This document shows, one piece after another, positions 8,372 through 42,892 of a DNA stretch of 64,000 bases; position 1 is the first letter of the stretch, and the number at the start of each line of letters is the position of its first letter. The translations under genes were made by a program, and so were the position numbers. Location of the stretch: assembly GCA_015146655.1 (NCBI GenBank), contig VKHL01000082.1, positions 1 to 64,000 on the forward strand, given 5' to 3'. A model generated the notes under the pieces. The model saw only the letters and a program-made list of their open reading frames with translations, was not told where the DNA came from and did not search any database. The DNA comes from Ochromonas danica (taxonomy: Eukaryota; Sar; Chrysophyceae; Chromulinales; Chromulinaceae).

Positions 8372-11300
8372 TTATCTAGATGCAATCCCATCTACAGGAA
8401 CACCTGAAGGTGGCGTCACGGGTGGAAGTAGACTGGAATCAGGTACAGGAAGAAGATTAGGACTGGGGCCTGTCTTATTAAACCACGAAGTAGCTTCCAC
8501 CTCTTTGCCTGTCTGCAAATCTCGATGCACTGATTTAAGGATGAGTTTGGGCTCATCAGGGGAGTTTTCCACTTCCAATGTTCGAGTTAAGACCATTTCG
8601 AAGCTGCCATCAGCAGCTCGTCTCTGTAGCACCAATGCACCGTCTTGCCAATACGCTTTGTGAAGAAAGCTACGACCATTTAATTCAACTGCCTGGAAAT
8701 CTGCCCCAATAGTCACCAAATTGTCCAAATTTATAGGCCCACCTTTCTCTTGCAGACGAAATGCTTTAAGTGCGGGAGGATCCATCGTGATGGTGTGCGT
8801 TAAAGCCATTTGGGCAGCCAGCTTACGCTGCATAAAGCCTGCTCCAGTGGCACCAATAAAAGCCTCAAAGTTATGAGTCTTCGTGCGCTGCCACACTCCA
8901 GAGAGGTCGATGTTTTGGATAACTCTCTTTTCAGAAGTATCTTCCACCACGATAGGCGAAGAGTCATTTTTGATAGCTTCTGGTGGAGAATGAGGGCTGG
9001 GTCCAACTAACTCATACTCTATGTGGGCCACAACTTCCTTTCCAGTCTTCAATTCATGATATTTGGCCTCCTATTTATGGGAATTAGTGGAATAGCATAA
9101 GTACAATGGGTATTTTACAAAATATGGTCAAAGTGGGGGAGCATACCGTCTTCAGAGTCTTGCCATTATTTATCAACCAACGCGAAACAATCAACTCGTA
9201 GTTTTCCTCCGGAGTCTTGAGTTTTCGAATAACCAATCGACTGCCTTTCCAACGTGCTTGATCAAGAAAGGTGTTCTTTGCAGTAGCAGTAGCAATCTCT
9301 GTTCCGTCAAGGAGGTAAGTTACATCTGAATCGATGGGACCACCCTTCTCTTGAAGACGAAAGACAGAGAGATCTTGAGACATGGTAATAGTGTGAACCA
9401 TAGAGATGGAAGAGGCCAATTTCCGTTGCACATAGCTAGCTCCTTGCACAGCAAGAAAATTCTCGTAGTTTTCAAGCTTAACACGTTTCCAAACACCTGA
9501 TAAATCCATGCGCTCGCCATTGGTCTCACTTTCATCGACCTTCGCGTTGTTGGGAGTTTCCTGGTCAATCACACTTCAGAAGTTTTAGTAACACATTCAA
9601 ATTCACAGAAAATGGACAAGAAGTAACAAACTCACTTCCTTTCTTGGACTGATCCAGACGGTTCGTCTTGAGGAAAGAAGCTATTGACCAGGTCTTCCAA
9701 TTGTGCAGGTGCACGTTCAGGAACAGGCAGCAAAAATCCTGCTGCAACAATAAAAAGCGGCGGCATGCCGAAAACATAAAGTATAGCGTAGCCAACCAGA
9801 ATAAACACCCACATGGCAACCATTGGCAGATTCTTTTTACAGCTGCTTGGATTGACAATCAACCAACAACGTAAATCATCCAGCCCAAGAAAGAGCATAC
9901 CCTTCTCCTCCGCAATTTGCAGCAAAGCCAAACGCTCACGCTCCTTCTCAAATTCCTTTCGTTCGCGATCTGGATCAACGCGACTGGCCAAGTGCACACT
10001 GGCAATGGGTTGAGGAGGGGAAAAGTAAGCTGCTGTTAAAGTCCTGAGGTGATCTCGCAACAACTGATCGCCAAGCGCGCAGCGATCATCGCCCGATAAC
10101 TTCTTGATGCGTTGCAACATCTTTGGCATCGAGACAGTGGAGAGTTCCTTTCGGCAAACTAAAGCGCTCTTGCGGGTTCCTTTCTCCAACCACTTCTGAT
10201 AGCACTTGCCGAAGCTTGTGTCTGTGTTCACAGCAGCTTTATCTTCTCCTATGAAATAGTAGTCAGCAGCGTTCTGAGTGCGCAGCCCACGCCAAACAGA
10301 TGTCGTCTGACTGGATTCATCTCCATTGCTCACTTCAAGAGGATAAATAAACAGAGCAGCTGAGAAGTCCTCCAGCTTTGACAACAGCGATGATTCTGTT
10401 CCTCCAACAATCATGGCTCGGCCACGGGAAAGCAATCCATTGCGTTCCTCTAAGTCACCGACTTCTCCATTCCGATTCTTCAGCTGAGCTGTTGCGGCAA
10501 GGACGAGAACGTCAGAGTCTTCCGATCGAATGAATGGTCGAATATCTCCAACTGAGGCCGCAGGTATTAGCAGAGAAGCCAGACCCAGAGCAATATTGGA
10601 GCACATTGCTGCGTTCGGAGCAATGACGACTATATCTTGTCCAGTAACCAGAATCTCCCACAAGCTCCAGATATGCTGTACCAAACCGAGTGGACCAAAT
10701 ACAGAAATAAGGTTAAGAGAGGACAAGAGAGCAGTTAAAGGCATATTGGCGACGAAGGACGAGGCAATATCAGCTTCAACTATATGACTCAAAGTATCCC
10801 CAAATGCGTGAAAGTAAGCCAATGTTCCTGGGATGGCAGGTGGCCAAAGGACGCTCTGACTGTGTGCAACACTCAATACATTGGCGACAATGTCGTTATC
10901 CAACTCAATGCCAACACTCCCAAGAGATAGTTGCGAAGAGTTATTTTTCTTTTGCTTCATGATGGACCAGAATTCATCATCAGGATTTATCGTGATTGAG
11001 TATAGATCGGACGGGAGCTCTCTTATTTCGGAATTCTCTGACTCATCATCGGAACTGTGGTGCATCTCTCGAGCTTGCCAAAGTAGCGCTTCATCTAGCT
11101 GCTCAAGAAGTCGAAAAGCAAGCTGAGGGAAAGGCCAACGAGAGACTATTACCATAGCTTGTTGGCAACTCGAAGCCTGGAGGGAGATGGAGCTCTTGCC
11201 CGAAGCCAGCTGGTTGTTCAAAGGAGTGTTGGAATCGAAGTACTGATAATGACAGAAACAGTTATAGAAGACAGTCGCGACAGAAACAGCCGTTCCAATG

Positions 11301-12263
11301 GCTTTGTCTCCATTTTGACTGCGAAATATCGATCCAGGCAACGATTTGTCTCGCACACGAAACATGAACTTTTCGTCAATGTGGGCGATTAAACCGGATT
11401 GCATGGGGCGAAGGCAGCTGCTCAAGATATCTTCACAAATTGGGGACGACAGGTTGCAATCTTCCGGTCGCATGCAGCGAATAGTGGCAGCTGTGGATGA
11501 GGGAAAGGCTTGGTCACCTTCCAGGCGAATAAAGAGGATAGCCTCGATCCAGGGAGGAAGCTGGGATGGGTGGTTGGGATTGGCCGTCACAACCTTGCCG
11601 TGCTGTAGATCCACAGCAGTATTCGCTAACCACAACATAGGGAAGAAAATAGCCATGACAACTCGCTTACAGACTCAGTGACACGTGGGATATCTTACCG
11701 GTGATAACCGGACCGCCTTTGCCACCTTCCTCTTTCTTAGTGGACTTGGAGTAGCAAGAGTTACAAGACTATGAAGCCACGCACCAGATTAAGGAAAACC
11801 ACAAGGAAATGAGTTGTGTGAAGGTATAGTAACTCACTCTCTTCAACGCACCGCCAATTACGATGCGATAAGAAGTGCATTTGTTGCAAAACACGGAGCC
11901 ACATCCTCTACAATGATGCTTTCTAAGAGTGAGAGAGAATTTCTTTTGGCATTGTGCACACTTCACGGCCGCGCGACTACTTTGCCAGCTGTTCTGGCCG
12001 CTGCCCGCGGGCTGTTGTTTTTGCTGCTGTCGTGCTGAGAACTCTTTGGCATCTTGGCGAACGCTTGATCGCCTCCGAGCAAAAGTTTGCTTTTGCAACT
12101 TGGAGATATTTAAAGCCTCTTCCATCTGACCAAACGATGAATCAATTTCTGTCTTCCTAAGCAGATCGATCTTCTCCCCGTGAGGAAAATAATATGGCAC
12201 AGATCGTTCGGAGATATCAGATATGTCTGCTGTGGCAGAAGGAATATTATTGTCCCTCCCCAC
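8372..12263 (-). CDS. FYVE + DENND6-like + membrane segments + two FABP-like domains
   Basis: Five exons keep one frame: about 12263-11838, 11768-11699, 11625-9636, 9573-9147 and 9070-8372. They give about 1,203 residues. Exons 1-2 hold a FYVE-type zinc finger ([22 protein letters not shown]), which usually binds PI3P on endosomes; the upstream WxxD is not obvious. Exon 3 holds a DENN module most like DENND6 ([35 protein letters not shown]), a Rab exchange factor family, then a hydrophobic stretch of about 35 residues, probably two membrane segments. Exons 4-5 hold two FABP/lipocalin-like barrels, each starting DLSGVW and sharing [10 protein letters not shown]. The introns are 69, 73, 62 and 76 nt. 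The N terminus is unsure: no in-frame ATG lies upstream, the first internal one is at 12125, and an acceptor-like site lies at 12285. Two or three separate genes remain possible. Confidence 0.6.
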
Positions 12264-13137
12264 GCAACAGAGGTTGGATAGTTGCTGTGGTTCCGTTGAA
12301 CTGACCCAAGTTCAAGTTCAAGCGCTGCTGTATTTGTATTCAAGAGAAAGAGGTATCGGAGCAGTCTCTTGCCACCACCACCATCATCACTAGACAGTTA
12401 ACTGAGGACATAAGTCAAAATTTAAGATACAACATGTCAATGAAGAGGCGTTGTCCGAGTAAAATTAATAAAATGAGCAAATTCAAATCGCAAGACCATT
12501 TGAATTCAAAATCATCAAAATACAATTGCAAGACCGAAGGCGTGTTAGAGCACCAAACGCTCAGTGAGGGAAGACGATACAACAATACACAGTGGAAAGG
12601 AACAATGTGCTCAACAATCAAATAAGAATCAAGAAGAAGACTGTTCTTCTCTTGATACTAACACTAAAATCAGCCATTGATTGGAACAAAGATCAGGCGG
12701 AAAATGAAGCTAAGATCACCGGGACCTGACGGTAGCTACCCAACAAAACAAAAATACACAACATCCCCATCACATGATCAACACAACATGATCATCCACA
12801 CAGGCTAACAAACTACTGAAGAACTACCAACTGAAGTGGCAAATGTAAAGAAACAACACGTCGGCTATAGCTAACTAACATGCAAACTATCTTCTCAATC
12901 TACGCCAAGCCATTCGATTCATTAGGTATATAATATAGCAATATCACATTAGAAAAGAGCACGGTTATCTCATCAATCATATACAAGCGAGAGACTGGAA
13001 CAAGTCCACCGAATAGAAACAAAGAAATAGTAAGGAGGTGGCTGACCATCACATACTCCAAATACAATGACAGAAAGGGAAAAGGAGCAAAGGCCATCAA
13101 AAAAAGAGGGTTAGGTAGGAAAAATTCAATGGAGGGT
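12264..13137. other. intergenic region
   Basis: The 874-bp spacer lies between the FYVE-DENN gene start and the globin stop codon, both on the minus strand. It must contain the globin 3' untranslated region and the promoter, and possibly a first exon, of the FYVE gene. The 12430-12700 part is A-rich. No convincing coding exon was found. Confidence 0.55.
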
Positions 13138-13956
13138 TCAGGTGTGATTGACCATGCGCGTGTCATGGGACTTCTCTCCCAGCGACTGCATGGAAACTCC
13201 ATGTTCGTCATATTGGGTCAATGCACCAGAAGCCGATCTAGACTCGGCGCCAACACCAGCATAGATATCAAGAGGCTCTCCACCAACGACGAAGTTAACG
13301 TGAGCCTCGCTTTCCAAAACAGTTCCATCAAGCGCATCAGGTAACATATGTTTCAAAGAGTACGCCAATAGGTTAACCCAAGCTTCCATCACAGAAGGGG
13401 TCGCATGGTTCTTCAGGCGAGATCCCATCGTTAAGAGGAATAATTCCAAGAAGACAGCAAACTGCCAAGGTCGCACCTTGTATTTCTTGTGCGACTGCCC
13501 CAACATCTTCAGACGCATCTTCATACCCGGAGTATCTCCGTCACATTTAAGCAAAAACTCCACAATTCGAACAATAATAGCACCCTTGGCGGCAATCTTG
13601 TTCGTTCCAACAGCATGTTTCATTAGAATCTTCTCATATGCACCATTCACGTCCACTTTGCTCAACCGCTCATAGAACTCATTGTAAAACGCGGTGATGC
13701 CGTGGAGTTGTGTTCCATACTCCTCATGCTGTTCCCGCTGGTTGACAATAATCTGCCAAGATTGACGACATAAAGGAAGAAAGCCCTGCTTCAACTGGGG
13801 AACAAGCGGAAAGGTGCTGGGCGTGAAGTGGGCCACCATAACATCCATAGGGATCGTTGATCTGCCAGAGATCCGAACTACCTTGCCGAAAGTCTCGATT
13901 TCTCGCGTCTCATCTGATACCTTGGCAACAGATTTAATACTCTGTGCACATCCCAT
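13138..13956 (-). CDS. globin-domain protein with dual-acylation N terminus (paralogue 1)
   Basis: A single exon encodes 272 residues from ATG 13956. It begins MGCAQS, a textbook N-myristoylation site with an adjacent Cys for palmitoylation, so membrane attachment is predicted. Residues about 55-210 form a globin-like fold: FLPLCRQSWQII (helix A), ITAFYNEFYERL (helix B), then LGQSHKKYKV with His156 as the likely proximal haem ligand, and VRPWQFAVFLELFLLTMGSRL (helices F-G). The spacing matches protist single-domain globins. Such proteins bind O2 or NO; the role here is unknown. A close paralogue lies at 23433-24230. The C-terminal 60 residues are unlike the paralogue and low in pattern. Loss of haem binding cannot be excluded, because the distal residue is not obvious by eye. 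Confidence 0.8.
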   Translation of the reverse strand: MGCAQSIKSVAKVSDETREIETFGKVVRISGRSTIPMDVMVAHFTPSTFPLVPQLKQGFLPLCRQSWQIIVNQREQHEEYGTQLHGITAFYNEFYERLSKVDVNGAYEKILMKHAVGTNKIAAKGAIIVRIVEFLLKCDGDTPGMKMRLKMLGQSHKKYKVRPWQFAVFLELFLLTMGSRLKNHATPSVMEAWVNLLAYSLKHMLPDALDGTVLESEAHVNFVVGGEPLDIYAGVGAESRSASGALTQYDEHGVSMQSLGEKSHDTRMVNHT

Positions 13957-14514
13957 ATTTGCTGCACAGATTATTTATGGACAGTATTAAATAATAAACT
14001 GATGAAGAAACAGACAGAATTCTTGGTTGGAGTTGGAACGGCGGATGGAAAAATTTCAGGTTGCTTGGACAGGAAGTAGATAGTCTACTGTGTACTATAA
14101 TCACACCAGCTAAACTGCTCCTAGAGGTGGTCTGGTCTGCTGGTCTGTCAAAATCTTGATGTCCTCCTCTTTGCCCAGCTCTGCTGCTCTCTCTGCTGCG
14201 CTGCCTCTTCCTCAACCTCCGGACCAAAGCACCAAAAATCACTGATAAAACCTTGAAATTTAGACAATAAAATCGAATTTCCCTCACCGCACCCCACCAC
14301 CAAGTTTTGGGAGTCCATAGAGAAAGAGAACTCATTCTAACAGCAGAAAGCAAACAGAAAGCAAACAGACAGACTGAGAGAAGCTGACCACTCCTTCTTC
14401 TCACCACTGGGCTTGATCTGCGAATTCTCTTGGTTGCTATAGCTATAGTTTTTCTTTTTCCATTTGTTTGATGTTCATTGGGGAATACCTCTCAAACCTC
14501 TTCGTGTCTACAAG
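13957..14514. other. divergent promoter region, globin 1 / ankyrin-like gene
   Basis: The region separates the ATG of the globin gene (minus) from the ATG of the ankyrin-like gene (plus). It must contain both promoters and leaders. A minus-strand frame with a hydrophobic start crosses it, but it overlaps the globin leader and has no family motif. An in-frame ATG for the plus gene also exists at about 14470. Confidence 0.5.
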
Positions 14515-23432: not shown

Positions 23433-24230
23433 TCAATGTATATTCGCCGTCTCTAGTTGTCTAGAAGATGCTTCTTTCAAATGGGTCGTCGAATAAGTTT
23501 GCAGCGCTGCCTCGGACATTCTCCCCAAGGCCAACTCGTCCTCTGCACAGAGCCCCTCTTCGTTCAAGACGAAGTTTACATGCGCTTCCGATTCCACAAC
23601 AATGCCGTCAATAGCGTGTGGAAGCATCGCCTTCAAACTGAAAGCAAGCAAATTCACCCATGCCTCCATGATGGAAGGCGTGGCGAACTTCTTCAACCGC
23701 GAGCCCATAGTCAGCAGGAACAACTCCAAGAAAACTGAGTATTGCCAAGGACGAATAGCCTTGTGCTTGTGAGATATTCCTAGTATCTTGAGCTTCTTTT
23801 TTGTTTCAGGAGTGTCTCCATCGAAACGCAAGAGGAAGTCGACAATGCGCACGAGAATTGCACCTTTCGCGGCAATGCGATTGGTTCCCACGGCGTGCTT
23901 CATCAAGATCTCCTCGTAGATACCTTTGGAATCTACCTTTCCAAGGCGCTCATAAAATTCGTTGTAGAAAGCTGTGATCCCTGCAACATGAGTGCCATAT
24001 TCTTCATGCACTTCATTCTGAGCCACAATGAGTTGCCAAGATCTGCGGCAAAGAGGCAAGAAGTCGGGTTTTAGCTGCGGCATCAAAGGAAACGTGCTGG
24101 GAGTGTAGTGGGCTATTTGCACTTCCATTGGTAAGTGGGACTTGGATGACACCTTGACCAGGCGAGAGCGTGAATTCACTTCGTGGTGCTGCTGCTCCTC
24201 GGCTGAGATTTTGGATTTGACTGCCCCCAT
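23433..24230 (-). CDS. globin-domain protein with myristoylation motif (paralogue 2)
   Basis: A single exon from ATG 24230 encodes 265 residues. The open frame continues upstream, but the ATG giving MGAVKSKIS is preferred because it yields an N-myristoylation signal like that of the paralogue at 13138-13956. The globin region (about residues 55-205) is highly similar to that paralogue: FLPLCRRSWQLIV, ITAFYNEFYERL, KHAVGTNRIAAKGA, and His154 in LGISHKHKAI as the likely proximal ligand. It lacks the Cys at position 3, so it would rely on a basic patch for its second membrane contact. It is transcribed divergently from the cyclase-like gene, 436 bp away. O2/NO binding is a family inference; no catalytic partner domain is fused. 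Confidence 0.8.
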   Translation of the reverse strand: MGAVKSKISAEEQQHHEVNSRSRLVKVSSKSHLPMEVQIAHYTPSTFPLMPQLKPDFLPLCRRSWQLIVAQNEVHEEYGTHVAGITAFYNEFYERLGKVDSKGIYEEILMKHAVGTNRIAAKGAILVRIVDFLLRFDGDTPETKKKLKILGISHKHKAIRPWQYSVFLELFLLTMGSRLKKFATPSIMEAWVNLLAFSLKAMLPHAIDGIVVESEAHVNFVLNEEGLCAEDELALGRMSEAALQTYSTTHLKEASSRQLETANIH

Positions 24231-24666
24231 TCCTGCGGTCCAGCTGCGATAAAAGCACTTGGTGGTGAGTGCAGTGGATAATGGTGGTGAAGATTGGGGT
24301 GCAGGGCAACACTCACAGGAAATACCAATGGCGCCACAGAACAAGACAATGAGCTGGAGCTGAGCTTCGGAGCTGGTGGTGGAAGAGAAGGCGAAGGGAA
24401 CAAACATCAACTCTGGAAGCCAGAAGTCAGTGCAGTGGGGCGGGAACCTTGAGACTTTTAATTCCTGTTTTCGCACTTTCCGCGAAGTGCAGACCGGGAG
24501 GTGTGCGTGTGTGCAAAGAAGCAAAATCAAAGTTGAAAGTCTGTTTTCCTGGAAGAAAAGCCTTGAACGTTGAGAGGAGCGGAACTCTCAGCTGGTTGAC
24601 GTGTTGTCGCAGGACAAAACTAAAGAAGAACTTTGTATGACATCGAGAGTTTCTTCTTCATGAAAA
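24231..24666. promoter_or_regulatory. shared upstream region, globin 2 / cyclase-like gene
   Basis: The 436-bp region lies between divergent start codons and contains both promoters and leaders. Parts are open on the minus strand, upstream of the globin ATG, but show no domain. No specific element was recognised. Confidence 0.45.
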
Positions 24667-27600
24667 ATGACAGATCAAGCTATCTTCTTCCCCACTCAAC
24701 CAATAAAACCTTTGGGATGGGCTGTAGGGGCGGCCTTGATTTCCTCTTTCCTCCAGAGCCTTAAAAATACTGCCCCAGCAGGTGGGCAAGAAATCGACTC
24801 CACGGAAGCCTTCATACAAGCAACCATTTCTAGGATAGAAAATGAAGCCTTAATTCAGATACTGGAGGAATATGGTTGGAATAAATTTGTCTCGAAATTC
24901 CAGTCTGCAGAGGTGGATCTGCAGGGACTGCGTCAGGCTTTGCTCAAGCCCGCCATGGGCTGCTCCCACAGAGTCTCTCTGATGCATCGCTGTAGCTCAC
25001 AGGCGGCTAGCTTTTTACCCAGTCTTGCTCTGACTTGCTTGCAGCCTTTTGTCGCATCAGAAGAGAAAATGAGACCGACAACTTTCCGCCTCCAAGCAGT
25101 CGTCCTGCTGGTTGCTTTGGACGGCTTTGAGCAGCTCTGTGAGCCTTTTCAAGCGACCAATAAGACGCATGCCGATAATGTGCAGCAAGGAAGTGAGAAC
25201 TTCTTGAGTAGCCTGACTGAGACTATCTATCAATATGGCGGAGACGTCATGCAGTGGAATTCATGCGGATCGTCCTTCGTCGCTCTCTTCGGTGACAAGA
25301 ACTCTCCTATGGAAAATGATGAATGCAGCGCTGAAGTGATCCTTCGAGCTATTTATTGCGCTCTTCAGCTCCAAGAGGTCAAAAGCGAGAAGCTTGCTGT
25401 TCGTGTAGCAGTCGGTTTTGGAGATTTTGTGTGCGGCTTCTTAGGTGGCTTTCATGATCAATGGCGATTTTTCTTCGCGTTTAATAATCAATCAAATTTG
25501 GCGTCTTGTCTTGAAAATGTGCCAAATGATAGTCTGGCCATTGCGGCGCCTTTGGCATCGAAAATATCGCCCAGTCTGCTCGAGCAGATGGGTGCTTACA
25601 AACTGCCGGCAGGCTACTGTTTTCATCTGTCTCGCGCTATGACTAAGCAAGTAACCGAGAATGTCATTATTCCTGTGGATGAGCCTACTCATTTGGATAA
25701 ATCCGACCGGTTCGATCGATTGGTTGATATGCTCGTTGCATCGCCAGTGTCGCAAGCTTGTCATTCCAATAGTTTGCACTATTTGGCTGAAGTGCGAGAG
25801 TTGACGACAATGTTTATGAAATGGGATAGTTACAATACCACTGACTATGCTGATCTGGCGCAATTACAACGTCCCTTTCTAGAGTGCCAGACGATCTTAC
25901 ATGAATTAGGAGGCTTCGTGAGGCAGTTTCTTGTGGAGGATAAAGGTTGTGTTCTCATCGCTTGTTGGGGGGTGCCAACGGCAGCTTTTCTTAATAATGC
26001 GCACCGTGCTTTATCTGCTGCAGCAAAGATTCGTGCAAAGTTTCATGAGCTTAACTTGCAATGCTCTATTGGCATCACAACAGGCAATGTCTATTGTGGA
26101 AATGTTGGCTCAGAGATTCGTAGAGAGTATGCAGCAGTGGGAGATGTCGTCAATCTCTCAGCAAGGTTAATGTCGAAAGCGCATGGTGGTATTTATGTTG
26201 ATGAAGCAACTTATGCTCGCCTGCCCGTGTTGATATGGTGTTTATTTGAAGAACTGGAGCAATTTAGTCGTTTTAGTGAAGTGCGTCCTGTCTTGATTTA
26301 TTCCTGGATGGGAGATGAGCAATCAATTCCGAATACTCTTGGGAGTGGAGGGGAAGAGTTTCAAGTCAAGACAGTTTGCCGTTCTACCCTTCTGAGGGCC
26401 TTGGATAGAGTTCAAGTGGTTGCCGGGACTTACGAAGACACTTGTCGTGCGCGTACAGCCGGTACTGCGGCTACTGCGGCTACTGCGGCTAGCAGTCGGC
26501 CTGTCTCGGTCGCCACTTCTCTGAGAACCTGGGCCGCCAGTCCTCTTTCCCTGCAAGTCGTTGCCCTCGAGGGCCACTTAGGGTCTGGAAAGCGTACCAC
26601 TGTGCGGTGGCTATTGAGAGAAGCAAAGCTTCGTAATATTCGAGTTGTCCGCGTGGCGCACATTGAGCATCGCCACAGTTTGTTGGAGTACAAAGTGATT
26701 GCGATGCTGTTGCAAGAGTTCATGGGCATTGCTGATGCGGACTCTCATCTTGTGCGTTCCGCCTTGGTCAATGTGCTGCGATTAGTCTACGGCGAAGACA
26801 TGGATGCTATAGAGAATGTGGCCATGCCTGTGATGAAGACGCTCTTTGGGAGTCTTCTCTCTGAGATGTCGCCTGCTGAAGGTCCTGCGAGTCGGAACAA
26901 TGCACGCGCGTCTTCCAAGGCAGTAATCGATGTCTTACATCCAGTTTTCGAAGCTCTCTTGAAGGGAGCGAGCACCATTGTCATTATCGAGAACCTGCAC
27001 TTCTGTGATGAGGGCAGCCTGAACTGCTTGACTGCTTTGATGGATCTCTCCGTTAATGCGCTCTTCGTGTTGGCCCTTGAGCCTCTCGAGCGAAGTCGTG
27101 ATATACCCATCCCTTCTATCAAGCACATCGTCGGGGAAGAACAGGCGCAATCGCCACAGCTACGGAATCAAACCTTTCGCTTGTCTTCTGGGCACCTCTT
27201 TGATATCATGCAAGTCTTCCGCAACAACATTCTCCTGGTTGAGAACTCTACTTACATCTATCTGAATGAGTTCAATCTCACTGATATCGACGCAATGCTG
27301 CATCTGGCCTTGGAGCCGGAAGTCGTGCCCCTCGGTTTAGCGCAATGGGTGCAGCAGCTGTCAGGCAGCAGTCTCACCTGGGCGAATAGTATTATCCAGA
27401 TGATCAAGGCCAATGGCCTTGCCGCCATGATGAATGTCGTGTATGGATCTTCTGCCTCTGGCTCCAAAATGAAGTCTATTAGCTCTTTGGAAGGCCTTGG
27501 CGCAGTCCCCACGTCTTACTCTTCTGATCGACTATTGAATAAGACTTCTTTTGTAGATAGCAGGCTCAGGGCTCAATTGAAGAACCTCATTCTTTGTCGT

Positions 27601-28770
27601 TTTAACCAGCTTACAAACGACGATCAACTTGTCTTGAAGATCGCAAGTGTGATCGGCACTGGGTTTTCCTTTCAGATATTGCAGGGCATTGTCAGCCCCG
27701 CACTGAGAGCACACTTGCATATCTATCTCAGAAAACTGATGGCAGAGAAATGGATCGCCGTAGTTGAGCAAAATAATACCGTTGTGGAAAGTGTGAATGC
27801 GCTTTTCCGATCGGCGGGAGAATCTGCCACAGCAGACAACTCCTCTATGTACATCTTCAGCCATCCCATGGCCTGGGAGACTATATACGAAACAATCCCT
27901 TTGGACGATCGAAATGCTATTCATAAGATCATTGCTGAGCTCTACGAATCAAAGATCAACGACGATCCCAGCCTCATTGATCGTGTGGCGAGCCAATACT
28001 CGCACTGCAGTCAGAGCAAATCGTTTGAATACGCGGTGAAAGCGGCTTGCTACTACCTTCGGCCGGATGTGCAAGACATGAGCAAGTCTCTTGCTCTCTT
28101 GGCTGATTGCCTCACCATGTGTCACTTTGTCATGGATATCAAAGTCCTGCAAACTCTGTTGAAGGCCATTCGAGACATTGTCTTTTGCTGTCATGGAAGC
28201 ATGGATGGCACTGAAGTCTTCATTGATCCTGCGGTCAGTCGAGAGCTATCTATTCGACGGAACCGCCAAAGTGAAGAAGAAATTGAATTACCGATGGACT
28301 TGGAAACGAGCTGCTTGCTATTCTTTTGCTGTGGAGGCCTGGGACAGGTGGCCAATAACAAAGTGCGACCAGGCACAAGCAATGTTCACCCCACCAAGAG
28401 CTCCTCTCGGTCGATTAGTATCAATCACAACTCCCATCGATCTGTTTCGAGGCGATCGGCACGATCTGGACATTCGGTTCAGTCGGTGGGAACCTTTCAA
28501 TCTCAAGTGTCGAGTTACACGATGACCTCTCCCATTTATACCTCGTCAGCCGCTGATTACATCCTTCACAACGTAATGCGGATTGAAAGGGTAGCTGCGC
28601 GCTTGAAAGAGCAGTTTGAAGAGGCGGGAAAGATCGGCATGCTGCCACTCTGGCAGCGAGAGATAGTCTTTGAGGAAGATGTTGTCATCCCTGAACAATC
28701 TTTCAAGTCTGCCACCGCTTTCATTCGCTACGCCAGAGCGTCTTGGATTCGTCCCGCAGCTAACACATAA
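24667..28770 (+). CDS. soluble adenylyl cyclase-like (ADCY10-type) protein, probably catalytically degenerate
   Basis: One exon encodes 1,367 residues with the ADCY10 order: cyclase domain C1 (about residues 140-300), C2 (about 375-545), then a STAND/AAA-type ATPase and a long helical region. C2 is recognised by FLVEDKGCVLIACWG, GITTGNVYCGNVGSEIRREY and VGDVVNLSARLM. The ATPase has a Walker A (GHLGSGKR, 636-643, where the usual Ser/Thr is Arg) and a Walker B (IVIIENLHFCD). In human ADCY10 two C1 Asp residues (FVDISGF and KFAGDALL) bind the metals. Here the matching sites read LVALDGF and SCGSSFV, so both Asp and the nearby Lys appear lost. It may be a pseudoenzyme or regulatory scaffold. The gene has no introns, unlike most neighbours. 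Confidence 0.8.
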   Translation: MTDQAIFFPTQPIKPLGWAVGAALISSFLQSLKNTAPAGGQEIDSTEAFIQATISRIENEALIQILEEYGWNKFVSKFQSAEVDLQGLRQALLKPAMGCSHRVSLMHRCSSQAASFLPSLALTCLQPFVASEEKMRPTTFRLQAVVLLVALDGFEQLCEPFQATNKTHADNVQQGSENFLSSLTETIYQYGGDVMQWNSCGSSFVALFGDKNSPMENDECSAEVILRAIYCALQLQEVKSEKLAVRVAVGFGDFVCGFLGGFHDQWRFFFAFNNQSNLASCLENVPNDSLAIAAPLASKISPSLLEQMGAYKLPAGYCFHLSRAMTKQVTENVIIPVDEPTHLDKSDRFDRLVDMLVASPVSQACHSNSLHYLAEVRELTTMFMKWDSYNTTDYADLAQLQRPFLECQTILHELGGFVRQFLVEDKGCVLIACWGVPTAAFLNNAHRALSAAAKIRAKFHELNLQCSIGITTGNVYCGNVGSEIRREYAAVGDVVNLSARLMSKAHGGIYVDEATYARLPVLIWCLFEELEQFSRFSEVRPVLIYSWMGDEQSIPNTLGSGGEEFQVKTVCRSTLLRALDRVQVVAGTYEDTCRARTAGTAATAATAASSRPVSVATSLRTWAASPLSLQVVALEGHLGSGKRTTVRWLLREAKLRNIRVVRVAHIEHRHSLLEYKVIAMLLQEFMGIADADSHLVRSALVNVLRLVYGEDMDAIENVAMPVMKTLFGSLLSEMSPAEGPASRNNARASSKAVIDVLHPVFEALLKGASTIVIIENLHFCDEGSLNCLTALMDLSVNALFVLALEPLERSRDIPIPSIKHIVGEEQAQSPQLRNQTFRLSSGHLFDIMQVFRNNILLVENSTYIYLNEFNLTDIDAMLHLALEPEVVPLGLAQWVQQLSGSSLTWANSIIQMIKANGLAAMMNVVYGSSASGSKMKSISSLEGLGAVPTSYSSDRLLNKTSFVDSRLRAQLKNLILCRFNQLTNDDQLVLKIASVIGTGFSFQILQGIVSPALRAHLHIYLRKLMAEKWIAVVEQNNTVVESVNALFRSAGESATADNSSMYIFSHPMAWETIYETIPLDDRNAIHKIIAELYESKINDDPSLIDRVASQYSHCSQSKSFEYAVKAACYYLRPDVQDMSKSLALLADCLTMCHFVMDIKVLQTLLKAIRDIVFCCHGSMDGTEVFIDPAVSRELSIRRNRQSEEEIELPMDLETSCLLFFCCGGLGQVANNKVRPGTSNVHPTKSSSRSISINHNSHRSVSRRSARSGHSVQSVGTFQSQVSSYTMTSPIYTSSAADYILHNVMRIERVAARLKEQFEEAGKIGMLPLWQREIVFEEDVVIPEQSFKSATAFIRYARASWIRPAANT

Positions 28771-38623: not shown

Positions 38624-41600
38624 TCACACGTCATCACCCTCCCTCTCCAAGCCCTCCTTGTCCTCATCAAAACCAACTTTGCGGTACACAGTAGCAGGCT
38701 TTTCAGCATAAATAATAGGATCTGTTGAGCGGCACCTTCCGAGCGACAAATCCCCCAGCACAACACGGAGAAAGCTGGGCGTGATAAAGTCTTCCAAGTC
38801 CCGATGACTCAGCAGGGGTTTCGTCAGCTCCACGAAGTACACAAGCATGAAGTACATCGCCTGGTAAGGTGGGTGATTGGAAATAGCCAGTTCATTGGAC
38901 TGGGCAACAAGGAGAACGCGACTGCCATACTGTAGAAAGCTTCGGAGATAGTCGTGGCATCGCGTCCTGGGGGGCAACGCGGCAACACCATCCCCTTCAT
39001 TCTTCAGAGTCTTGCTCACTCGAATAGGATTGTCCGTTCTCTGCGAAGTGTAAGAATACTCACTCTGTGCATCGCTAACGTTTCCTTTGGTATCAGAGGC
39101 CAGCAGAGGAATGTGATGGACCTCGTGCAGGTTGAAAATCATGACCATCAGCTTGGCAAGCGCGAAAAAGACCACGTGTTCGTTCTTCTCAAAAGCGCAA
39201 ATGCGAAGATTGAACTGAGCATGATCATAGAGGCCCCCAACCAAGAGGGCAGCAGCGGCAATAGGGAGCAGGCGCAAAGCTGAGAGATCGTCCTCTGACC
39301 ATTCAATAGACAGGATGAAATCTGTGAGAGCGATATCTCGACCATCTGTCACACCATAGGAGTGCATAAGAGAATAGTAAACATAATGATCCATGGGTAT
39401 TTCGTAGGCCCAAGGATCAACGCAGTGATGGAAGTGGTTCAAGGTGGCGAACAGCAAGCTTCCGTTGGCGTGGCTGCCGCTGGCGAGGCGATGCTCACTG
39501 TGGACAGAGTCGAAAAGCATCTCCCGAAGAGCGAAGATAATGCCCAGTTTTTGCAATGATCGTTGAATCTCTGGGAGGTGTTTCATGCTGTTAGCTGCCG
39601 CGACGGAGAGCAGACACTGGCTTCTCAACAACTTCAAATATCCACTCTCCTCTCTCAGCAGCGAAACCAGGTCTTCAATCTAAAGAACAATCAAAAGGAG
39701 ACCTAAATGAAACCGAATAATGAAATAAAGTACATGGCAATGAAGATACCTCATCAAGCGCGAGACGCAGCAGCTGTCCTTCCAAAAGACGCAATCCGTC
39801 AATACCGAGGAAAGACACCAGACATCGAAGCTCTTCCCGGTTAAGAAACTTCTCTATTGGCAGGCAATCAGCTTTGTTTTCTTCGCGTTCAAAGGCATTG
39901 TGTAGGAAGATATTGATGAAGACCATGCGATAGGGCAGATAGATCAAACCTGAACCCTCAGTCATAATCTCCTTAACCAGCTGATTGAATACCTGCGAGA
40001 TATGATAGATAATAGTATCTTCCTTCAATTCCAGTTGGCTACTTAGGGGCATTCCAATCATTGGGATGCCTTCAAAGTCATTTTTCACCAAATGCGCCAT
40101 AACTCTGTCCTTAATGCTGGTCACACTCGCATCGCTATGATTCTCCAGGATCATATTCAAGCAATCTATTCCCACGTTAAACTTCTTGATCACATAAGAA
40201 AATTTATAAAGCTTTTGATGATCAAAGCGGAAACTCTCCAAGATGGTGGTTTGAAAATGCTCAACCAGCTTCTGCACGACCAGAGCGAGGGGGTAGTAAC
40301 GCTTCGAATAAACGTCAATGTTCCCCGTTATCTCCGGTCCAATATCTTCATTCGACTTCTTCTGCTTATCACCAGAGAGTCGCATATTGAGCACTTTTGT
40401 CAGCAAAGCAATCGCATGAATAGTGCCGGTCAGCTGACTCTTTAGAGCAACCAGTTTCTGAATGCGTCCACGCCATTCCCAGTTGCTCTCCAATCCTGGC
40501 TTTCCATTTTGCCCCGCCTGACTAGGAGAAACCTGATTTGCCAAGGAAAGCTCATAATCCCAAAATTCTTGATATGCTTGTACAACTTTATCAGAGAGGC
40601 TTGTCAGAAGCACTCCAGTGAACGTCACGGCCGACTCTCCAACAGCTTCCTTTATTACTCCTAGCATGTCAGACATTCCAGAGAGAGGCATTGCTTTCAT
40701 CTGGCTTTCTTCTGATTCAGTTGCTTGCACATTAGTTAGATACCTTAGATCTCGGAACAGGAAGGCAGTGGAATAGAGGGCAACAAAGTAAATGTTATTA
40801 ACGCTGTTTGGCTGGGAGGAATTCAAGGAAGATGCTGACACTATGTCCTCGATTGCTCGCCTGCACCATCCAATCTTCTCAATAGGCAAAGCAGAGCGGA
40901 CGACATGATACAAACTGAAGGCACACCGGCATTGCACTATCATGGCTCTCAAGACAGAGAGACTTTCCGCCAATCCCTGCGAAGTAGAAGAAGAACTGGC
41001 CGGCCCATTTCCGCTCGACCAGACAGTGGAAGTGTGTCGTTGCGAAGCTACCCCAGCAGTAACAATTGTTGTGGTGGACAGAGCAGTCTCTCTTCGAGCC
41101 CGCGAGCCTACCCCAGCACTCTCAGCTTGTGCGAGATAAAAAGTTATGACTTGCTCCATCTGATATAGCAAATGCTCTTCTGCTCTCTTAAGAATATATT
41201 CCACCACTTTGGATGGCTTGGGATCATTGGTAACGATCGCTCCAACTTCACTAAATATCCCCTTTAGTCGCTCCATCCCCAGTCTTAGACTCTCTTTTAA
41301 CGGGTTATCAACCGGCCAAGAAAGGGTTAGGGATTCCTCCATCTCATTGGTCAGCAGTCTTCGATGATAAGCGATCACGGCCTCGGTGTGATCTCCGGAC
41401 AGTATGTGTTCTTGGAAGCGATAGAGAACAGCTATACAGTCTGCAAGATTGTTGAAGTTCTTCTGTTTGGGAGAGACGAATAGCGCCTGACAGTCTGACC
41501 GCAAGACAGTGTGTTGATAATGCAGTGCGTAGGATATCAACTCAGATGTCAGCAATCTTCCCACTAGTAGCAGAAGAGGCAGTTTGACAGCGAGCAAAGC

Positions 41601-42892
41601 AGAATATAACCCACATAGTCCGAGCAACTGATTCATCTTCTCGAGGAGGCAAAGCCTCCGGACAAAGGATTGGCCAGCCACCTGGCGATACGAGTTCTGA
41701 CACAATTCTTTTGCCACAGACCGTAGAGTGGAGGGCCGCCCTGATTTCTCAACGTGAAGCTTTGTTAAAATCTCCAATTCGGTGTGGAAATCCACCACGA
41801 GGTCTCTAAAAATAGGGAAGACCATGCGGTAGCTGGTCACAGTGCCGACCAATCGATTCATCGGCTTTTGGAAGAGAGAGGAAGGGTACACCAATGCCAC
41901 GAAGAGAATGAAGTCATAGTAGCTGTCAAGGCGCATCCATTCCTCGATCAGACAGACCGTGCAGCCAGGCCTGCTGGACAGAGCGACAGGGTAGCGCGGC
42001 GGATCTTCCAGGCCACCTCCTTGAAGCAGATCAGTGACAGCCTCGAGCTGTTTGGGGTAGTCAAGGGTTAGATCGATGATCTCTTCGATCATTCCAACAG
42101 CCTGCAGAAGCACGGGCTGCATGGGTTGGAATGTATCGCTCAAATACGACAAGAGATCCTGGCTACTCTCTAACAATTGCAGAAGCAAGTCGATCTCCTC
42201 TTGATGCGTCTGATCAAAGTCCTTGTTCAGGGCTCTCTGTACAGCCAAGTAGATCTCAATGCAGAGGAACTTCTCGGGCATGTGGTCCAACAGGTAAAGC
42301 AGCCGCAGGAAGAGTCGAAAGAGATCCACGAAGCACCACAGCACGACCCGCGGACACTGAGTGAGGGACCATCAAAAGTGAAAAAGAGGGGACAGATCCA
42401 TGAAAGATACGCGTAAGTGAATTGGTGTTAACTTCCCCATTGCACTGAGAGTGCAGTGCAGGTCACAATCATATTCCACCTCCTACCTGAGGAAAAAGAA
42501 TCCAAGCGCTCATGTCCTGCAGCATCTGCAAGAGGAGAGGAAGGAACGCTGCCGCCTGATGGAGGATAGAATAGATTGGCTGCAAGCCTGCCAAGAAGAA
42601 CGAGCTTCGACTCAAGAACTCCTCCCTCCCAGCCACCTGAAAGAGCAAGCCAGTCAACTATTTGCATAGAAACCACACTAGAAAGTCAACAATCCAATTA
42701 GACCTGAGAAAGATCCGCGGGTTGAGGGAATCGCTTCTCAATGCGGATCAAGATCTTGATCAGCTTCGTTTCGCGCATCTCTTGAATAGATCCTCCTTCT
42801 TGACATTCTTCAAGCAATAGCACCTTTGCATGGTAAAGTAACGCAAGGAGACCTTCTCCTTCCTTCAATAAGGACTGAGCTTTGGCCAACAT
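38624..42892 (-). CDS. NCKAP1: NAP1/HEM (NCKAP1) subunit of the SCAR/WAVE complex
   Basis: Four exons (42892-42704, 42636-42487, 42356-39750, 39679-38624) encode 1,333 residues, somewhat longer than the 1,128 of human NCKAP1. Matches are spread along the chain. The N terminus reads MLAKAQSLLKEGEGLLALLY then KILIRIEKRFP, like the KLAEKLTILNDRG and KFIVRKFP parts of the family. CLIEEWMRLDSYYDFILF corresponds to the segment at EKWIIFGF. LLEKMNQLLGLCGLYSALLAV corresponds to TVLSDQPGLLGPKALFVF. LVSFLGIDGLRLLEGQL corresponds to ELLGPYGMKFLSE. With CYFIP it forms the scaffold that holds SCAR/WAVE and activates Arp2/3 at the plasma membrane. All introns are short and phase 0. Divergence is high, so the call is by dispersed motifs; NCKAP1 and the paralogue HEM1 are not separable. 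Confidence 0.8.

Follow-up and report, generated by a model that had tools for sequence, protein, structure and literature searches.

A predicted Ochromonas danica gene combining a FYVE finger, a DENND6-like core, a hydrophobic hairpin and two FABP-like barrels

We describe a predicted gene of the alga Ochromonas danica on the minus strand of contig VKHL01000082.1 (assembly GCA_015146655.1), within the stretch of 64,000 nucleotides (nt; positions 1 to 64,000) that was analysed as a whole and is called the window below. Its product would join in one chain a FYVE zinc finger, a region with a DENND6-like core, a hydrophobic hairpin and two barrels of the FABP type, which makes it a new combination of known parts. 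This domain architecture is likely, judging from the sequence; the mechanism of a membrane-contact tether or lipid-transfer protein is one that we infer from it.

The gene model was obtained by splicing and translation, and all of its parts lie on the minus strand. Exon 1, taken as an open frame (11838..12311), is followed by intron 1 (11769..11837; 69 nt, GTGAGT...TAG), which lies within the FYVE domain, exon 2 (11699..11768), intron 2 (11626..11698; 73 nt, GTAAGA...TAG) and exon 3 (9636..11625; 662 residues), which carries the DENND6-like part and the membrane hairpin. Intron 3 (9574..9635; 62 nt, GTGAGT...AAG) connects this part to the barrels; exon 4 (9147..9573) encodes a linker, which scores as coding, and the greater part of barrel 1, intron 4 (9071..9146; 76 nt, GTATGC...TAG) lies inside barrel 1, and exon 5 (8372..9070) supplies the end of barrel 1, barrel 2, a tail and the stop codon. 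Removal of the four introns leaves a single frame that has no internal stops, ends at 8372 and comprises at least 1157 codons; its earliest ATG, at 12125, supplies residue 1 of the 1157-residue model. Upstream of this ATG the frame stays open for 62 more codons, to 12311, and an additional 5' exon is possible. Coding scores from a codon model trained on the window's 12 long open reading frames (ORFs), without this gene, are positive in the chosen frame of exons 2-5 and near zero in exon 1, with the other frames of each exon scoring lower; exon 3 reaches 0.14 bits per codon in frame, and its other five frames are negative. An original prediction, made from the sequence alone, had proposed four short introns with consistent phases, and splicing them out does give one open frame. 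All four introns have GT donors; introns 1, 2 and 4 have TAG acceptors, and intron 3 has AAG. Of its span (8372..12284), the lower end coincides with the stop codon and the upper end with no shown start.

The FYVE zinc finger (residues 47-105; 11742..11987) matches the Pfam model PF01363 with 54.5 bits (cut-off 27.8), and a profile search of the whole genome (31.2 Mb, 337 contigs) also matches here. All eight zinc-binding cysteines are present (residues 56, 59, 72, 75, 80, 83, 98 and 101), the last two encoded by exon 2. The signature for binding phosphatidylinositol 3-phosphate (PI3P) in FYVE domains consists of WxxD, R+HHC+ and RVC; here RKHHCR is intact, WxxS replaces WxxD and RSC replaces RVC. 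The genome contains 34 FYVE matches at E ≤ 0.001, 31 of them over the cut-off (one of these only together with its neighbours). Four FYVE matches with near-equal scores lie elsewhere within 8 kb on one strand (G000:C80:76643-84498) and represent a tandem gene family or a multi-FYVE gene.

The middle region contains a cDENN core (residues 421-491; 10511..10723) that resembles DENND6A. The human DENND6A, DENND6B, AVL9 and ARL8B queries were reconstructed sequences, that of DENND6A being checked solely through its own Pfam matches, which include Avl9, DENN and SPA. When the reconstructed DENND6A was searched with tblastn against the genome at E ≤ 1, the sole match was this locus (E 1.4e-4, 31% identity); within the core, 21 of 72 residues are identical. 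Smith-Waterman comparison with DENND6A gave z 16 for the core (71 residues) and z 13 for the whole module, neither score being reached by any of 1000 shuffles; the controls (two neighbouring genes and the barrels) were reached by 143, 115 and 398 of 1000. In a comparison over six frames with nine other DENN loci of the genome, namely 8 of the 12 places matched by PF02141 and an Avl9-like locus, the core scored z 14 against DENND6A and at most 6.3 against the others. By these alignments the core is DENND6-like, and DENND6 is the closest of the DENN families tested. A candidate longin/uDENN part (residues 145-287; 11123..11551), placed by alignment to the reconstructed DENND6A and AVL9, is not significant.

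The activity of DENND6A itself is disputed. Older papers report that it promotes nucleotide exchange on Rab14 and Rab34 (PMC3383995, PMC10830484), whereas a 2026 preprint describes it as a GTPase-activating protein (GAP) for ARL8B with undetectable RAB14 exchange, describes Avl9 as an Arf1 GAP, and places the catalytic arginine finger between strands 4 and 5 of the longin domain (PMC12803157). In our alignments R111 of the reconstructed AVL9 (ITRETVQKS) corresponds to R166 of DENND6A (LKRGYFQKS). At this position the window protein has Ala (SLQASSCQQA against TLKRGYFQKS of DENND6A), in a stretch that aligns weakly, and the genome's Avl9-family protein (L021, G000:C35:202145-202909; PF09794, 43.6 bits) has Arg (VRRGAIVKS). 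Loss of the GAP arginine in the window protein is likely from this comparison. The reconstructed human ARL8B matched 20 places in the whole genome at E ≤ 1e-5, all with at most 37% identity and none a clear ARL8; ARL8 is usually highly conserved, and a genuine one should show considerably higher identity. A DENND6 relic that would bind a GTPase without GAP action fits both the Ala and the lack of a clear ARL8. Small-GTPase binding is the safest reading of the DENN part, since the GAP arginine seems lost and Rab exchange is disputed. Rab activation, the role first assigned to this module, is doubtful because the preprint finds DENND6A to be an Arf-family GAP without RAB14 exchange (PMC12803157), and should be dropped or held open; in view of the same preprint, a Rab guanine nucleotide exchange factor was rejected as the default reading.

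The hydrophobic hairpin (residues 719-755, 37 residues; 9719..9829) consists of two hydrophobic segments flanking the motif FGMPP, with two Lys directly ahead. On the Kyte-Doolittle scale its hydropathy peaks at 2.22 over 19 residues, the highest value in the protein. If the chain crosses the membrane an even number of times or forms a re-entrant hairpin, its two ends would lie in the cytosol, so that the FYVE/DENN part and the barrels would share one side of the membrane, as their cytosolic roles require.

The FABP-like barrels 1 (residues 805-947; 9005..9509, split by intron 4) and 2 (residues 979-1125; 8471..8911) were identified with phmmer and are 38% identical to each other. Searched against the PDB, barrel 1 matched intestinal FABP (E 8e-7), followed by CRABP2, FABP9 and RBP2 (best 60 of 93 matches at E ≤ 0.1), and barrel 2 matched intestinal FABP (1dc9, E 5e-6; 1ifc, 9e-5), RBP2 (7mfx, 6e-6) and FABP5 (best 60 of 146); a two-barrel profile gave 60 matches with a best E of 5e-8. 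The best rows span about 95-119 residues. Among the matches listed for barrel 1, barrel 2 and the profile, all chains belong by name to the intracellular lipid-binding protein (iLBP) family, in which we count myelin P2, ReP1-NCXSQ and a chain named Lipid Binding Protein. The reversed sequence of barrel 1, used as a control, had no match at E ≤ 10, and tblastn with barrel 1 against the whole genome at E ≤ 10 found these two barrels only. Intestinal FABP binds the ligand carboxylate through the buried R106 and through R126/Y128. Each barrel keeps an Arg at the position matching R106, which fits an acidic lipid ligand; the C-terminal pair R126/Y128 did not align. Homology places both barrels in the iLBP/FABP family. 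The FYVE finger, the double hydrophobic segment and the two FABP-like barrels of the original prediction are all borne out by these results, and the matches of the FYVE finger, the cDENN core and both barrels exceed what chance would give.

Taken together, the parts tentatively suggest, by analogy with known tethers, a hairpin-anchored protein of membrane contacts that reads PI3P and a small GTPase and carries lipid in its two barrels. The hairpin would anchor the protein in one membrane, most likely the endoplasmic reticulum (ER) or alternatively the endosome, and the N-terminal FYVE finger would bind PI3P on endosomes or the vacuole. The DENND6-like module, which is more probably a monomeric DENN-GAP protein in altered or non-catalytic form than a Rab exchange factor, would bind a small GTPase on the PI3P membrane and so provide a second, identity-checking contact. 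The two cytosolic barrels past the hairpin might then serve as carriers between the apposed membranes, loading and unloading fatty acids or other small lipids. Were tether, GTPase contact and lipid carrier naturally fused in this way, that would hint directly at one process shared by the three, and it would link DENND6, debated as a Rab exchange factor or an Arf-family GAP, to phosphoinositide-marked membranes and fatty-acid handling. A more specific version, which we regard as unlikely though worth stating, is a one-chain lipid conveyor made of a PI3P reader, a DENND6-derived GTPase sensor that lacks the GAP arginine in a genome without a clear ARL8, a hairpin anchor and two fatty-acid-shuttling barrels, these being intracellular FABPs outside animals. 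If it were true, the barrels would push back the origin of the FABP family or indicate gene transfer.

Several observations weigh against the tether. Two signature residues are missing from the FYVE finger, D in WxxD and V in RVC, and an atypical FYVE domain may not bind PI3P: that of protrudin reportedly binds other phosphoinositides (PMC7769939). For the barrels, the Pfam FABP and lipocalin models PF14651 and PF00061 were not matched in the protein scan (E ≤ 10, most matches above 0.1 being filtered out), and barrel 2 had only unrelated Pfam matches below the cut-off (E 0.12 and 0.24). Neither Lipocalin (E ≤ 1) nor Lipocalin_7 (E ≤ 10) matched anywhere in the genome; Lipocalin_7 matched no control genome either. 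The family fold is a barrel of ten strands with a helix-turn-helix lid. A model of barrel 2, built together with the exon of barrel 1, shows two helices followed by meandering strands and was discarded as unusable, its mean predicted local distance difference test score (pLDDT) being 48.4; a Foldseek search with it gave 923 matches at E ≤ 10, none of them at E ≤ 0.001, with avidin-like structures first and no FABP among the best 50, and was not used. Relatives were found neither in viral contigs (exon 3, barrel alignment) nor in prokaryote genomes (exon 3, barrel 2), which says little because these collections consist of viruses and prokaryotes, where algal orthologues are not expected.

The main rival is that the same protein is an endosome-resident GTPase regulator, held on a single membrane by FYVE and hairpin, in which the barrels would act as lipid sensors that switch the DENN module on or off, with no transfer. 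We consider this job somewhat unlikely. Tandem barrels beside a bilayer suit sensing and transfer equally well, and Avl9-type DENN proteins have been reported as GTPase regulators (PMC12803157); however, the best alignment, itself weak, shows no conservation of the GAP arginine, the ARL8B search returned no clear ARL8, and no signal follows the cDENN core.

Intron 3 is the weak link of the gene model. The locus could hold two adjacent genes, a FYVE-DENN-hairpin gene with a terminal TGA that shares nucleotides with the donor of intron 3, and an independent gene for the tandem FABPs that begins at the Met of MDLSGVW at 9509. FABPs are normally free proteins that usually start at the position equivalent to this Met. 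The AAG acceptor also speaks for two genes: an adjoining CAG, when paired with the same GTGAGT donor, gives an intron of 75 nt that breaks the frame, and this pairing was rejected. That CAG preserves the frame with weaker donors at 9688 or 9649; altogether eight GT/GC-AG pairs of 45-140 nt link the frames of exons 3 and 4, two of them with the GTGAGT donor. Moreover, one frame of intron 3, belonging to neither exon 3 nor exon 4, has no stop and scores slightly above zero as coding (0.16). Against two genes stands the stretch of 60 nt that leads from the AAG acceptor to the Met codon at 9509; it is open in the barrel's frame and strongly coding-like at 0.395 bits per codon. Of 19,784 overlapping open 60-mers taken from outside the long ORFs of the window, 0.056% score this high, as do 0.3% of 7,733 coding 60-mers. 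The preceding 62 nt, intron 3 itself, have 32% GC, the consensus donor GTGAGT and, when read in the exon-4 frame, four stops. Two genes would have to fit the 3' untranslated part of the first and the 5' untranslated part of the second into about 120 nt (9631-9510), and barrel 2 shows that the domain can do without a Met here. We therefore find two genes improbable, and the FYVE, DENN-like, hairpin and barrel parts very probably form one gene. The single polypeptide first proposed probably holds, given the open spliced frame and the coding-like linker before barrel 1, and we infer a single transcript.

The middle region might also be no DENN module at all, the likeness seen in its core being due to chance or very remote, in which case the protein would combine FYVE, hairpin and FABP parts with a large, unrelated central region. 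The Pfam model PF02141 scores 12.8 bits on this protein (E 0.11; cut-off 23.4), although the reconstructed DENND6A itself reaches only 22.5 bits and thus also stays under the cut-off, and a genome search with PF02141 at E ≤ 1 found 12 other places and not this locus. The flanks of the core are not significant, the score of the preceding stretch being reached by 46 of 1000 shuffles and that of the following, unrecognisable stretch by 545. With hhalign, exon 3 gave a meaningless match to the reconstructed DENND6A/B (score 5.3, against a maximum of 9.6 among 40 shuffles); BLAST and HMMER detect a core where hhalign sees none. A PDB search with exon 3 returned four matches, none of them a DENN chain and all of them light-harvesting alpha chains aligned over the hairpin (E 0.88-1.2), and a single-sequence fold prediction of exon 3 (662 residues) was set aside as unusable (mean pLDDT 34.8). 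These results, too, count against the proposed architecture, yet a region without DENN ancestry is very improbable when no shuffle reaches the score of the core and the genome-wide search with DENND6A leads to this place alone. For the DENN module as originally predicted, significance is confined to a DENND6-like cDENN core of about 70 residues, whose Pfam match stays below the cut-off; the rest of a full longin/uDENN-cDENN-dDENN triple is at most a candidate.

Contamination was rejected as a source of the locus: the contig bears globin, ankyrin, Nckap1 and helicase genes, and the GC content of the stretch (46%) is within the window's range. Two globin-domain ORFs, both on the minus strand and separated by about 10 kb, lie at 13138-13974 (-; 36.1 bits) and at 23433-24587 (-; 20.9 bits, just under the cut-off of 22). 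An open frame of 1368 residues at 24664-28770 (+) contains a partial cyclase catalytic domain (45.4 bits) followed by AAA_16 under the cut-off (26.1 against 32.6), presumably the arrangement of soluble adenylyl cyclases. Two adjoining frames at 38624-42371 (-) match positions 125-364 and 861-1111 of the 1119 in the model of Nckap1, a subunit of the WAVE complex. Elsewhere in the genome there are 47 matches to the light-harvesting family and, side by side, two modest silicon-transporter matches (46 and 32 bits); both findings fit a photosynthetic alga, plausibly an ochrophyte. Four of the light-harvesting matches, with identical scores and an exact spacing of 2407 bp (G000:C224:8673-16382), stem either from recent tandem duplication or from a repeat in the assembly.

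Consistent with the original prediction, which knew of no protein with this domain order, a search of titles and abstract beginnings, with most subscription journals outside its range, met no described FYVE-DENN-hairpin-FABP protein. To our knowledge, DENND6A (FAM116A) is without FYVE, hairpin or FABP parts; it shares the cDENN core with the window protein and differs by the GAP Arg where the latter has Ala in a weak alignment, and in that the part after the core is unrecognisable in the window protein. The main text of a 2012 paper on DENN evolution mentions FYVE 0 times (PMC3521125). The barrels match structures of the FABP/CRBP/CRABP group (FABP and RBP2 for both, CRABP2 also for barrel 1), yet differ from known iLBPs in that they are arranged in tandem, stand beside a membrane hairpin and occur in an alga. 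The FABP family is said to postdate the separation of animals from plants and fungi (PMC10909404), and two iLBP barrels in an alga make this view of an animal invention testable with algal proteomes.

In the way it might work, the window protein is closest to protrudin (ZFYVE27), which is reported also to combine a hairpin, a FYVE domain and contact with a small GTPase (Rab) in one chain and, residing in the ER, to act with PDZD8 in moving lipid at ER-endosome contacts, the transfer being performed by PDZD8, a separate SMP protein (PMC7769939). Protrudin differs in that neither DENN nor FABP is among its listed domains and FYVE comes last in that list; the likeness is one of working principle, and no homology is claimed. 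In the text on the proposed class of transmembrane membrane readers, to which protrudin and Snx13/14 belong, the terms DENN, FABP and fatty acid binding each appear 0 times (PMC9692390). The members of this class carry an anchor together with a lipid-reading domain able to contact a second membrane (PMC9692390), as the window protein would do here.

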